A DNA stretch of 64,000 bases. It comes from Thermoleophilia bacterium (GTDB lineage Bacteria > Actinomycetota > Thermoleophilia > Miltoncostaeales > Miltoncostaeaceae). The translations under genes were made by a program, and so were the position numbers. The notes beneath the pieces are model-generated. The model was given only the letters and a program-made list of their open reading frames with translations. It was not told the DNA's origin and did no database searches. Positions 19,260 to 51,645 of this stretch are shown here, one piece after another. Numbering within the stretch: position 1 is the first letter of the stretch; every line of letters begins with the position of its first letter. The stretch spans positions 1-64,000 of the forward strand of contig JANQPH010000020.1 in the NCBI GenBank assembly GCA_028285405.1. The letters are read 5' to 3'.

Positions 19260-19265
19260 TACATT
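19260..19265 (+). promoter_or_regulatory. -10 box TACATT, HDAC operon
   Basis: TACATT lies six bases before ATG 19272 of a 13-codon ORF, so the transcript should begin on that ATG. Confidence 0.5.
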
Positions 19266-19271
19266 GGGTGC

Positions 19272-19313
19272 ATGATCGCGCCCCGCCCCCGACGCATCGA
19301 CACGGTCGCGTGA
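19272..19313 (+). CDS. 13-residue leaderless leader peptide
   Basis: Reads MIAPRPRRIDTVA and stops at TGA 19311-19313, which overlaps the GTG start (19310) of the deacetylase as GTGA. With the -10 box only six bases upstream, ribosomes would enter here first and could reinitiate on the downstream gene. The peptide is Pro/Arg-rich; ribosome slowing at these codons is a possible regulatory use. The same arrangement recurs at 38947-38982. No homologue is known to me. Confidence 0.45.
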   Translation: MIAPRPRRIDTVA

Positions 19314-33330: not shown

Positions 33331-33415
<85 letters not shown>

Positions 33416-35720: not shown

Positions 35721-36058
35721 GTGCAGGCGAGGCAGTCGCGGGCCGAATACCACGGTCCGAGGAAAGTCCGGACACCAACGAGCAAGGGTGCTGGCTAACG
35801 GCCAGCGAGGGAAACCTCAGGGAAAGTGCCACAGAAACGAAACAGCCTCCGGGCGACCGGCGGCAACGGTGAAAAGGTGCGGTAAGAGCGCACCAGCGGC
35901 CTGGTGACAGGTCGGCTGGGCAAACCCCACCCGGTGCAAGGCCAAGCGTGAGCGCGACGGGCTGCTCGCCCAGCTCCAGGTAGGCCGCACGAGGCGCTCG
36001 GCAACGAGCGTCCCAGATGGATGACTGCCCACGACAGAATCCGGCTTATCGCCTGCTA
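35721..36058 (+). ncRNA. rnpB: RNase P RNA (bacterial A type)
   Basis: Catalytic RNA that matures tRNA 5' ends. Universal segments are present in order: GAGGAAAGTCCGGAC (35759-35773), GGTGCGGTAAGAGCGCACC, AACCCCACCCGGTGCAAGGCC, GATGACTGCCCACGACAGAA and CCGGCTTATC. The ends pair as helix P1 (GCAGGCGA at 35723-35730 with TCGCCTGC at 36049-36056), which sets the boundaries. A terminator follows immediately. Confidence 0.96.
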
Positions 36059-36060
36059 AC

Positions 36061-36977: not shown

Positions 36978-36983
36978 ATCTTA
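36978..36983 (-). promoter_or_regulatory. -10 box TAAGAT overlapping the upstream stop codon
   Basis: TAAGAT on the complement, eight bases before ATG 36969. Its first three bases are the TAA stop of the GNAT gene at 36981. Confidence 0.5.
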
Positions 36984-37664
36984 CTGCCGCGCCGGACGGC
37001 CAGCGCCATTCGCTGCCCCGTCCCGAACGCCGCGATCGAGCGCGAGCTCCATCTTGAGGGCGCCTCTGGCGCCGAACAGGAGCCGGCCGGTCGGCCACCG
37101 GCGGCGGCGCACCACCTCGAACCCCGCGGTCAGGTACAGCGCCTGTGCCCCGATGTTGTCGCCGGTCACCCACAGTCCCAGCCGGCTGCGACCCGCCTCG
37201 CCGGCGCGCCGGGCGCATTCCTCGATCAGCGCCGTGCCGATTCCTCGGCGCCTGAAGTCGTCCGCGACGGCGAGCTCGTCGAGGGTCGCCTCGTCGCGCG
37301 CGGGGACTCCCTTGGCGAACGCCGCGAGCACCAGCGTGGCCCGAGCTGCCCGCAGCGGACCGAGCGCCGAGATCAGCGGTCGGATGACTGGCGCTCCCTG
37401 GCCGTCCGTTCCGAGGTACGCGACACCGGCGCACACCTCGTCGCAGATGGCGACGAGGTAGCTGCCCTCGCGAGCCGGGTCGGCCGCTGCGCGCGCGATG
37501 GCGGTGATCGCCTCGACGGACTTGCCGCCGTACGCCGGGCCGTACTTGTCGGCGAGTCCCGCCGCGAGCAGCCGGCCGACCTCCTCGGCGTCGGCGGCCG
37601 TGGCCTCGCGGATGGTGACGCCCGGCGGCAGCCGCGGGTCGCGGGCCTGTGCGGCCGTGCTCAT
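36981..37664 (-). CDS. GNAT-family N-acetyltransferase
   Basis: A 227-residue acetyltransferase. VTIREATAADAEEVGRLLAAG starts the fold; the acetyl-CoA loop is ELAVADDFRRRGIGTALIEECARRAGEAG, and GDNIGAQALYLTAGFEVVRRR closes it. Acceptor substrate unknown. ATG 37664 overlaps the SnoaL-like gene's stop by ATGA. The C-terminal 20 residues are Gly/Ala/Arg-rich. Confidence 0.9.
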   Translation of the reverse strand: MSTAAQARDPRLPPGVTIREATAADAEEVGRLLAAGLADKYGPAYGGKSVEAITAIARAAADPAREGSYLVAICDEVCAGVAYLGTDGQGAPVIRPLISALGPLRAARATLVLAAFAKGVPARDEATLDELAVADDFRRRGIGTALIEECARRAGEAGRSRLGLWVTGDNIGAQALYLTAGFEVVRRRRWPTGRLLFGARGALKMELALDRGVRDGAANGAGRPARQ

Positions 37665-38062
37665 GGCTGCGCCCAGAACTCGTCACTCTCGGCCGGGAGG
37701 GCATCGACCATCCAGAGCTCGCCGATGCGACCGTCGCGGACCCGCGCGAGCTGGCCGGAGTGGTTGTGAAGACTCCGCCCTCCGCGCTCGGCGCGGACCT
37801 CGACGAGGAACAGCACGAGCCCCGGCTCGACGAGCACCGAGTCGGGGACCGTGAGGCGCAGCGAGGCGCTCCCGACGTCCATCTGGCGGACCGAGTCCAG
37901 ATACCGCTCGCGATCGACGCGCTTCGAGCCGCCGTCGGCGGTGGTGACCCAGGCGACGAAGTCCTCCGCCATCAGGTCGCGCATGTCCTCGATGGCTCCG
38001 GCCTCGGCCGCCTGCACGAAGCTCGTGGCGACGTCGACGACGTCTCGGGAGTGCTCAGGCAT
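37661..38062 (-). CDS. SnoaL-like/NTF2-fold protein
   Basis: A 133-residue cone-shaped alpha+beta protein. VVDVATSFVQAAEAGAIEDMRDLMAEDFVAW and the Trp-containing C-terminus (RIGELWMVDALPAESDEFW) fit the SnoaL-like family, which contains isomerases, cyclases and proteins of unknown function. It overlaps the methyltransferase end by eight bases and the GNAT start by four, so the three genes form one operon. Confidence 0.85.
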   Translation of the reverse strand: MPEHSRDVVDVATSFVQAAEAGAIEDMRDLMAEDFVAWVTTADGGSKRVDRERYLDSVRQMDVGSASLRLTVPDSVLVEPGLVLFLVEVRAERGGRSLHNHSGQLARVRDGRIGELWMVDALPAESDEFWAQP

Positions 38063-38891
38063 GGGCGCGGACGTACAGGACGGTTGCGTCGGCCAGGACG
38101 CCGGAGTCGCCCGCGAGCCGGGTGTAGTGCTCGTGGAGGGCGACCTCCGCGGCGGCCAGCGCGGACGGCGAGGCGTCCTGGGCCGCGGCGGAGACCCGCC
38201 CGATCCCGCGGAGCGAGAAGTCCGTTGCGTCGCTGGCGTCGTGCCCGACCCGCACCATTCCTCGGTGCTCCTCCACCCGGCGTTCGGCGAAGCCTGCGGC
38301 CTCGAGTACCTGGAGGATCTCGTCGGGGTCGGACAGCGCGAACGGGCCCTTGCCGTCGGGGTGGGTCGGCGCGACGTCCATGACGTCCGCGACGACGGCC
38401 GGTGGGTCCGTCATCCAGGGGTTGTGGGACGCCTCCGCCCAGACGGCCGCGAGCAGACCACCGCCCGGCAACAGCGCTCGCCTGAGGTTCGAGAACCCGG
38501 CGACCGGATCCGAGAAGAACATCACCCCGAGTCGGGAGAACACGAGGTCCACCTCGGGCAGCGCGGCCGTCTGGGCGTCGGCCTCGAGGAATCGGACGTT
38601 GTCGAGCCCCCTCTCGCGCGCCCGTGCCCGTGCTCTACGCAGCATCGGCCGCGAGACATCGATGCCGGTGACCGAGCCGGACGGTCCCACCAGGTCCGCA
38701 AGGTCGAGCGTCGACCCGCCGCAACCGCAGCCGACGTCGAGAACCCGCATTCCGGGCCGGACGGCATCACCGGTGAGCAGCGGACGCACGAGGGGCTGGA
38801 CCATCTCGTCGAACCGCTTCTGGGCACGCACCCAGCGCGCGCCGGCGACGCCGTTCCAGTACTCGATCTCGAAGTCGTTGGTCGTCGCCAT
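38055..38891 (-). CDS. SAM-dependent methyltransferase, class I
   Basis: A 278-residue methyltransferase. Motif I is MRVLDVGCGCGGSTLDLADL, motif II follows in SVTGIDVSRPMLRRA, and FLEADAQ then DLVFSRLGVMFFSDP complete the Rossmann core, a UbiE/ArsM-like class. ATG 38891 begins a typical WNGVAGARWV N-terminus; 14 earlier codons look non-coding. A TAGCAT -10 at 38906-38911 gives a leader of about seven bases. Substrate unknown. Confidence 0.9.
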   Translation of the reverse strand: MATTNDFEIEYWNGVAGARWVRAQKRFDEMVQPLVRPLLTGDAVRPGMRVLDVGCGCGGSTLDLADLVGPSGSVTGIDVSRPMLRRARARARERGLDNVRFLEADAQTAALPEVDLVFSRLGVMFFSDPVAGFSNLRRALLPGGGLLAAVWAEASHNPWMTDPPAVVADVMDVAPTHPDGKGPFALSDPDEILQVLEAAGFAERRVEEHRGMVRVGHDASDATDFSLRGIGRVSAAAQDASPSALAAAEVALHEHYTRLAGDSGVLADATVLYVRAHA

Positions 38892-38934: not shown

Positions 38935-38940
38935 TACGAT
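38935..38940 (+). promoter_or_regulatory. -10 box TACGAT, leader ORF and GGCT-like gene
   Basis: TACGAT ends six bases before ATG 38947, predicting transcription from the A of that ATG. Confidence 0.5.
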
Positions 38941-38946
38941 CCAGGG

Positions 38947-38982
38947 ATGACGTGTGTGAACCGCTCACGCGGACCGTCGTGA
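38947..38982 (+). CDS. 11-residue leaderless leader peptide with Cys
   Basis: Reads MTCVNRSRGPS; its TGA overlaps the GTG start at 38979 as GTGA, the same layout as 19272-19313. In mycobacteria leaderless Cys-rich micro-ORFs are known attenuators; this one has a single Cys, so a cysteine-sensing role is only a suggestion, though the downstream enzyme resembles glutathione-related gamma-glutamyl cyclotransferases. Confidence 0.45.
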   Translation: MTCVNRSRGPS

Positions 38983-39566
38983 CGTCGCCGGCCTCAGGCG
39001 TCACCTCCACCCGTCGGCTCGCGGTGATGGCATACGGCTCGCTGATCGTCGAGCCGGGGCCCGAGCTCGAGTCGTTGATTCGAGCTCGCCGCCCGGCCCG
39101 CACCCCGTTTCGTGTCGAGTACGGTCGTGCGTCGGCGCGGTGGGGCGGAGGGCCGGTGCTCGTGCCGCATCCGGAGGGATCGAACGTCGACGGCGTTCTG
39201 CTGCTGCTGCGCGATGAGGTCACGCTCGGCGAGGCCGTGGACGTGCTCGCGCGGCGCGAGGCGACCGACCCGAAGCACATCGTCGAGGCGATGCTCGGGG
39301 TGGGCGTCACGGCGCTCGTCGCCGACCTGCCGCGGAACCTGAACGACCGCGAGATGGAGCCGGCGGCGCTCGCCCGCCGGGCGATCGAGAGCGGAGCCGC
39401 GGGGGAGCGCAACGGCGTCGCCTATCTGCGCGGCGCGCTCCGGGCGGGAATCCGCACCCCGCGCACGCCCGAGTACGCGCGCGAGGTCTGCGCCCAGCTC
39501 GGTGCGGGAACCCTCGAGCAGGCCGAGCGCCGGCTGGCATCGTTGGTAGCGTCCGCCGACCACTGA
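38979..39566 (+). CDS. gamma-glutamylcyclotransferase-like protein
   Basis: A 195-residue protein. MAYGSLIVEPGPEL near residue 17 is the substrate-loop signature (YGSL) of the GGCT/BtrG fold, and NGVAYLRGALRAGIRTPRTPEYA near the C-terminus is the matching conserved tail. Members cyclise gamma-glutamyl amides to 5-oxoproline. GTG 38979 is suggested by the leader ORF overlap; ATG 39027, just before YGSL, is an alternative. The rhodanese gene follows after 13 bases. Confidence 0.78.
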   Translation: MTSPASGVTSTRRLAVMAYGSLIVEPGPELESLIRARRPARTPFRVEYGRASARWGGGPVLVPHPEGSNVDGVLLLLRDEVTLGEAVDVLARREATDPKHIVEAMLGVGVTALVADLPRNLNDREMEPAALARRAIESGAAGERNGVAYLRGALRAGIRTPRTPEYAREVCAQLGAGTLEQAERRLASLVASADH

Positions 39567-39579
39567 CGGGGAGAAAGCG

Positions 39580-39924
39580 ATGGCATGGGACGACGTCACT
39601 CGGTGGCAGCCGGTCGACCTGTTCGCGTCGTTCCGCATGGGCGACGCCGTGCTTCCCATCGATGTGCGCGACCTCACGTATCGCGAGTCGACGGAGAAGA
39701 TCAAGGGCGCCGTGCGGATCGATCCGTTCGAGTTCGAGGGAGCAATCGGCGGCCTGCCTGATGACGTCGAGCTGATCTTCTACTGCGACCGGCCCGGCGA
39801 GGCGACCAGCCTCAAGGTCGCGATGTACGCGTTCGACCACGGCAAGCCGCGGGTCGGCGTGGTCGTGGGTGGCTTCCCGGCGTGGACCGAGGCCGGATAC
39901 CCCGTCGAGCCGAAGGACGGGTGA
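39580..39924 (+). CDS. rhodanese-domain protein
   Basis: A 114-residue single-domain sulfurtransferase-like protein. The aspartate strand LPIDVRDLTYRES and the active-site loop YCDRPGEATSLKVA with Cys near residue 69 are clear, followed by GVVVGGFPAWTEAGYPV. Transfers sulfane sulfur between small thiols. ATG 39580 has GGGGAG six bases upstream. Likely co-transcribed with the GGCT-like gene, hinting at thiol metabolism. Confidence 0.93.
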   Translation: MAWDDVTRWQPVDLFASFRMGDAVLPIDVRDLTYRESTEKIKGAVRIDPFEFEGAIGGLPDDVELIFYCDRPGEATSLKVAMYAFDHGKPRVGVVVGGFPAWTEAGYPVEPKDG

Positions 39925-51571: not shown

Positions 51572-51645
51572 TGGGCGCGCCAGGATTCGAACCTGGGTCA
51601 CTGGGATTATGAGTCCCGTGCTCTGACCAACTGAGCTACGCGCCC
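51572..51645 (-). tRNA. tRNA-Met (CAT), elongator type
   Basis: On the complement the acceptor is GGGCGCG/CGCGCCC, the D-arm GCTCAGTTGGTCAGAGC, the anticodon loop CTCATAA with CAT, and the T-arm CCAGGTTCGAATCCTGG. The discriminator is A; CCA is not encoded. The loop context fits elongator Met; tRNA-Ile2 cannot be wholly excluded. Its last 40 bases recur at 48615. Confidence 0.93.

Follow-up and report, generated by a model that had tools for sequence, protein, structure and literature searches.

A putative leaderless micro-ORF coupled to a gamma-glutamylcyclotransferase-like gene in a Thermoleophilia bacterium, and its possible origin in the loss of bcp

Organization of the locus

The window, that is, the whole stretch of 64,000 nucleotides that was analysed, belongs to contig C1; the genome, which is from the Miltoncostaeaceae lineage (Thermoleophilia), measures 2.41 Mb and is assembled in 57 contigs. 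On its plus strand, a putative −10 hexamer of the TANNNT type, TACGAT (38935-38940), is separated by the six bases CCAGGG from the ATG at 38947 of a putative leaderless micro-ORF of eleven codons and a TGA stop (MTCVNRSRGPS, 38947-38982), which has counterparts in three relatives (L005 in G013, L008 in G004 and L102 in G002). The stop codon (38980-38982) overlaps the GTG start (38979) of the next gene within the tetramer GTGA (38979-38982), a type of tetramer common to the three relatives. This next gene (38979-39566, plus strand) encodes a GGCT/AIG2-like protein of 195 aa, is without a clear Shine-Dalgarno (SD) sequence, and is followed by a rhodanese-like gene at 39580-39924 (plus strand; Pfam PF00581, E 6e-7). 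The first-pass annotation had described exactly this arrangement, from the hexamer to the stop/start overlap, with a rhodanese behind the second gene; every coordinate was re-found in the sequence, and the Pfam match agrees with the rhodanese. A further match of the rhodanese, to the NCBIfam model 'rhodanese-related (seleno)protein', scores 62 bits and stays under the cut-off of 115.

On the minus strand lie a divergent methyltransferase gene (38055-38891; Pfam Methyltransf_31 and others), a SnoaL-like gene (37661-38062; PF12680) and a GNAT acetyltransferase gene (36981-37664; PF00583), the last being the usual divergent neighbour. The methyltransferase and SnoaL-like genes, which separate the GNAT gene from the micro-ORF, are absent from the 10 other GGCT-like loci examined. 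Since the locus has been rearranged, with these two genes now beside the promoter, that promoter may differ from the one present in the ancestor. Elsewhere in the window, a class A RNase P RNA (35723-36060, 263.9 bits) and two tRNA genes on the minus strand (33331-33415 and 51572-51645) are found.

The name 'gamma-glutamylcyclotransferase-like', given to the product of the downstream gene in the first-pass annotation, is weakly supported. The protein scores 12.9 bits against Pfam GGACT (PF06094), below the gathering cut-off of 22.8, and any match to this profile is seen in two of nine members. The top Foldseek matches of the predicted model (pLDDT 74) are YkqA (2qik, E 0.037) and an AIG2-like protein (1vkb, E 0.2), which point weakly in the direction of the name, their TM-scores being low. 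The start codon at 38979 is independently supported, as the N-termini of the relatives are similarly placed ahead of the motif LAYGSL: the distance from protein start to motif is 12-15 residues in the relatives, 16 in the window and 18 in G009 if a CTG is used there. The anti-SD duplex before the GGCT-like start amounts to −3.2 kcal/mol in the window, −1.7 in G004, 0.7 in G002 and −7.8 in G013, the medians being −3.2 kcal/mol at random positions and −4.9 kcal/mol at called starts.

Leaderless starts and coupled micro-ORFs in the genome

The frequency of such signals was determined in a sample of 1,105,828 bases (46% of the genome), in which 1076 genes were called with a simple codon model. TANNNT precedes an in-frame RTG of 53, 58 and 32 genes at spacings of 6, 7 and 8, respectively, and the other spacings average about four genes each, with shoulders at 9 (17 genes) and 11 (13 genes). 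The 143 gene counts at spacing 6-8 per 798 occurrences of TANNNT correspond to a rate of 0.179, as against 0.0028 per occurrence for the 63 remaining motifs of this shape, a 64-fold difference. TANNNT at this spacing is the dominant signal before gene starts in the sample, and its frequent presence ahead of an in-frame RTG suggests that leaderless starts are common in this genome. Of the RTG codons at spacing 6-8 in the vicinity of a gene, 148 share the reading frame of that gene and 20 open an out-of-frame micro-ORF.

The first-pass annotation had called for a genome-wide scan for micro-ORFs of this kind and, from two identical layouts in the window, had supposed a device common in the genome. 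The scan bears out an enrichment: nine micro-ORFs coupled by NTGA onto a called gene occur at spacing 6-8 in the 46% sample, as compared to 3.3 expected from the 24 found in total at 22 other spacings (Poisson p 0.007). In the window itself, scanned at TANNNT spacings of 0-20 for micro-ORFs that overlap by NTGA with an ORF of 80 aa or more, two cases were recorded at spacing 6 (micro-ORFs at 38947 and 19272), one each at spacings 15 and 17, and none at all the remaining spacings. The two layouts are thus present as described and are a local excess within the 64 kb; 'common' overstates a count of nine against about 3.3, and the coupled leaderless device appears to be real but not abundant. Smaller samples of relatives gave no coupled candidate at spacing 6-8 in G013 and G004 together, and two in G011 and G025 together.

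GTGA overlaps come cheap in GC-rich genomes. When a coupling rule slightly wider than that behind the nine candidates was applied, the coupled share of out-of-frame micro-ORFs was 10 of 20 at spacing 6-8 and 24 of 71 at spacings 0-4 and 10-24, a difference that is not significant (p 0.14). Since 24 of the 71 at wrong spacings end in the same manner, the NTGA overlap alone is weak evidence for any single locus.

Conservation of the layout among relatives

A GGCT-like gene is present in 11 of the 42 genomes of the order, all 42 from one family; no second genome of the window's own genus was among those compared. A contig search with the single protein yielded no locus, and one with an alignment yielded seven. 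All four GGCT-like loci that lack the peroxiredoxin gene bcp carry a TANNNT hexamer, an RTG micro-ORF 6-8 bases behind it and an overlapping start. Besides the window (TACGAT-6-ATG, 11 aa, GTGA), these are G013 (TAGGGT-6-GTG, MGEGSRA of 7 aa, GTGA), G004 (TAGCCT-8-ATG, MSPHAARRAAAGG of 13 aa, GTGA) and G002 (TAGGCT-6-GTG, MAEASRLAEGDRAPEVIFVGGDARPAVTKGHAARVLRAPG of 40 aa, ATGA). The four peptides are mutually unrelated, and Cys is confined to the window's copy.

The layout, as judged by comparison of these loci, appears to be conserved and the peptide not, and a layout kept without its peptide most likely represents a leaderless mini-cistron by which the SD-poor start of the next gene is supplied with ribosomes. 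The proposal, already made in the first-pass annotation, of a leaderless micro-ORF coupled directly to the next start gains from this conservation and from the frequency of leaderless starts in the genome.

An ordinary short 5' leader in which the ATG is read by accident, with the GGCT-like start found otherwise, has to be weighed against this. The ease with which micro-ORFs end on NTGA in a GC-rich genome would allow it, and the window taken alone is a modest case: when promoter and start were fixed and the bases between them shuffled, the layout arose with a probability of 0.023. The corresponding values are 0.039 for G013, 0.011 for G004 and 0.016 for G002, and the three relatives keep the layout despite differing promoter-to-start lengths and differing peptides, with a probability product of about 7e-6. 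It is this conservation in three relatives that places the window layout above chance. The weak SD in the window, G004 and G002 also speaks against a start found otherwise, and coincidence is thus considered unlikely.

The GGCT-like protein might also carry a near-leaderless N-terminal extension, starting at the GTG at 38952 (MCEPLTRTVV...), five bases past the presumed transcription start, with the ATG frame being incidental. This GTG is in frame and lies 11 bases after TACGAT, a spacing that is mildly raised among in-frame starts. It has no counterpart in G013 and G004, whose only nearby upstream in-frame start is the one in GTGA, and the relatives' proteins begin 12-18 residues ahead of LAYGSL. 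The start at 38952 was rejected as the relatives have no equivalent, and the extension is held to be quite improbable.

Proposed loss of bcp and possible origin of the micro-ORF

The GGCT-like loci share the order divergent GNAT, bcp where present, GGCT-like and rhodanese. A complete bcp gene lies directly upstream of the GGCT-like gene in seven of the 11 (G007, G009, G011, G017, G019, G022 and G025). The divergent GNAT gene is found upstream in 10 of 11, being missing in G002, and the rhodanese gene follows in 10 of 11, the contig of the eleventh (G002) ending inside the GGCT-like gene. A histidine-kinase-like frame stands directly before the micro-ORF in G002 and, by a likeness judged by eye, such a frame stands beyond the GNAT gene in G013. 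In G004 (L008/L105), the GGCT-like and rhodanese genes form a single open frame without an intervening stop, which may be a fusion.

In three of the bcp-bearing relatives, the bcp stop and the GGCT-like start share a 4-nt overlap, as GTGA in G007, ATGA in G017 and CTGA in G009. At the G009 junction (L103), the CTG within the overlap with the bcp stop is the sole nearby start of the GGCT-like gene. A separate observation concerns G025 (L006), where bcp itself is preceded by TAGCCT, six bases and the short frame GTG CCC CCA CGA CGG AGG TGA, which runs over an SD sequence and whose TGA overlaps a GTG two codons ahead of the bcp ATG.

In a midpoint-rooted tree of AcuC-like and MurJ-like proteins, with AcuC alone standing for G002, the four micro-ORF genomes group as a single clade (FastTree support 0.966) that lies within the bcp-bearing genomes. 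No Bcp was found at E<=1e-15 in G002, G013 and G004, an absence weakened in G002 and G013 by their completeness of 73 and 80%; the window's genome carries a bcp gene elsewhere (C10).

The micro-ORF of G002 bears the sequence SRLAEGDRAP near its start, which resembles the N-terminus of Bcp, and KGHAARVL near its end, which resembles the Bcp C-terminus KGHAASVL. The anchored N- and C-terminal blocks score 33 and 34, values reached by 12 and 4 of 4000 shuffles, respectively, and their sum was reached by none of the 4000. Free local alignments with six Bcp proteins gave scores that were reached by between 0 and 14 of 500 shuffles. Against a HMMER profile of Bcp, this micro-ORF scores only 3 bits, below several shuffles, and since the profile is weak the case for a relic is built on the anchored two-block test together with position and synteny. 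On these grounds the micro-ORF of G002 can be taken, at sequence level, as a demonstrated relic of bcp.

The peptides of the window, G013 and G004 gave Bcp scores reached by at least 28% of 2000 shuffles, and the idea that all four micro-peptides are bcp remnants was dropped, the two-block test supporting G002 only. The likeness of MSPHAARRAAAGG to the Bcp C-terminus was rejected likewise, as 1347 of 2000 shuffles score equally well.

A single loss of bcp in the ancestor of the clade, with a translatable remnant that was kept and then shortened, is the simplest account of these loci, and descent of the window micro-ORF from bcp is plausible. Put in its fullest form, this account would treat the micro-ORF as a fossil cistron: after the loss of bcp, the promoter, the leaderless start and the stop/start overlap would have been retained because the downstream gene had no independent start, and the former gene would have been worn down to ribosome loading, with G002 at a middle stage (40 codons that include both ends of bcp) and the window close to completion (11 codons). 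The odds of this fuller version are put at slightly less than even. If it holds, operon shrinkage would be one source of coupled leaderless small ORFs with meaningless-looking peptides. It offers a concrete and testable origin for leaderless mini-ORFs, as the leftover of an operon's deleted first gene.

Proposed function of the micro-ORF

Direct observation covers the promoter spacing, the layout, the persistence of that layout in four diverged genomes, the unconserved peptide and the ends of bcp in G002. The reading that best combines them, and that has good support from the comparison of genomes, is that a leaderless mini-cistron probably loads ribosomes for the GGCT-like start by termination-reinitiation, the copy in this clade being most plausibly what the loss of bcp left behind. 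The transcript would begin at the ATG at 38947, TACGAT placing the presumed transcription start on or beside this codon; a ribosome would start there without a leader, read eleven codons and terminate at the TGA at 38980; and re-initiation at the overlapping GTG at 38979 would then be by this ribosome or by its small subunit. The peptide itself would be unimportant, the reading frame being what counts. In this clade the micro-ORF stands at the place of bcp in the relatives; what the loss left would be the promoter, an initial frame that can be translated, and a stop codon overlapping the start behind it. Reinitiation is favoured by the weak SD before the GGCT-like start in the window, G004 and G002. 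It is also favoured by the 188 of 633 neighbouring same-strand pairs of called genes that offer a start codon in a 4-nt overlap, and by the bcp/GGCT-like overlaps of the three bcp-bearing relatives; the murJ-like gene described below provides an independent example of the layout. The fair SD of G013, at −7.8 kcal/mol, speaks against coupling as the sole route in that genome.

Translation of the micro-ORF could alternatively serve mainly to cover the nascent RNA against Rho-dependent termination rather than to supply reinitiating ribosomes, a role that the cited part of a study of M. tuberculosis uORFs considers (PMC11260477). In the same account, the ppe2 case needed the tight stop/start overlap itself (PMC11260477); the window frame spans just 36 bases and the overlap is exact in all four copies, which makes protection a very unlikely main function. 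Control by cysteine, which the first-pass annotation had suggested and by which a ribosome stalling at the Cys codon would tune the downstream thiol genes, could appeal to the one Cys codon, to the downstream rhodanese and to the peroxiredoxin gene in the relatives' GGCT-like unit, but it is hardly credible, as the Cys is absent from all three relatives that keep the layout, the peptide is unconserved, the lone Cys forms no tract, the frames adjoin without a gap and leave no room for alternative RNA structures, and the mycobacterial attenuators are conserved and Cys-rich in the portions of the sources cited (PMC4633059, PMC9094748). In a leaderless micro-ORF, the presence of one isolated Cys codon does not amount to evidence for attenuation.

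Comparison with known systems

The mechanism favoured here, delivery of ribosomes by a leaderless mini-cistron, is already known in kind. Translational coupling of neighbouring genes by a 4-nt overlap was reportedly treated by Huber in 2019, and Cys-rich leaderless sORF attenuators of mycobacteria are said to have been described by Canestrari in 2020. The window shares the stop/start overlap with such coupled genes, those studies being mostly of full-length gene pairs. With the attenuators it shares a short ORF, putatively leaderless in the window, ahead of possible thiol metabolism genes, and it differs from their conserved Cys-rich peptides in having one Cys, which is unconserved and is found in none of the three relatives' micro-ORFs.

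The closest parallel is provided by the 'coupled' leaderless small ORFs of Mycobacterium in the part of Shell et al. 2015 used here (PMC4633059). A small ORF of 5-50 aa and an RTGA overlap are common to both: the window has 11 aa with GTGA, and the relatives have 7, 13 and 40 aa. An RTG at the transcription start, as in those small ORFs, is presumed here; the distance from TANNNT to RTG is 6 in the window, G013 and G002 and 8 in G004, inside the leaderless spacing peak of the genome. A conserved layout with an unconserved peptide, found in four of four bcp-less loci, is likewise reported there (PMC4633059, Fig 6B legend). The present case differs from that of Shell et al. in belonging to Thermoleophilia and not to mycobacteria, in being known from sequence alone, and in that the small ORF of one relative preserves both termini of an upstream gene that has been lost.

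In M. tuberculosis, NUGA coupling between uPPE2 and ppe2 was shown by mutation, according to the sections drawn upon (PMC11260477). That system also has a short uORF, an AUGA overlap and an SD-less start driven by termination-reinitiation; its uORF, as described there, differs in being leadered with an SD and in forming part of a B12 riboswitch leader. A 2025 review (PMC12548453), in the part consulted, speaks of short ORFs whose sole job may be ribosome delivery. No prior account of leaderless coupled ORFs in Thermoleophilia, or of their derivation from a former gene, was found among open PMC papers with limited search wording. The mycobacterial idea of a leaderless mini-ORF that delivers ribosomes is hereby extended to a deep actinobacterial lineage, by conservation and not by a single case.

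The same layout at other genes

The first sample of the window's genome gave six candidates at spacing 6-8 (the GGCT-like gene, a murJ-like gene, L041, acuC, L015 and L042), for the first five of which relatives were sought; the larger sample added L220, L221 and L222. At L047:3750, whose product we take to be MurJ-like, the layout is found in 21 of the best 30 family loci, across six genera, and 20 of them have a micro-ORF of 8 codons. The micro-ORF peptides differ between genera, and wrong spacings gave one match among these 30 loci. Outside the family, none of 30 loci from 40 genomes searched shows the layout at spacing 6-8.

The second layout in the window consists of TACATT (19260-19265), a micro-ORF MIAPRPRRIDTVA from 19272 and a GTGA overlap onto a gene at 19310, presumably AcuC-like (19260-19313 in all, plus strand). 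Among the best 30 acuC loci it is seen in the window only, that is, in none of the 29 from relatives, in 14 of which an in-frame start instead follows TANNNT at a spacing of 5-9. At L041:4878, four of 29 loci, the genome's own included, have the layout, and in 22 of the 25 others TANNNT precedes an in-frame start by 5-9 bases. L015 has no relative at E<=1e-40. The counts for the murJ-like gene, L041 and acuC suggest that the layout is gained and lost, and that some genes retain it firmly.

The murJ-like locus (L047:3699-3750, on contig C23 of the same genome, and L161-L190), with a putative leaderless micro-ORF of 8-13 codons coupled by NTGA and a promoter element, TATCGTA, that looks symmetrical, would lend itself to experiment better than the locus in the window.
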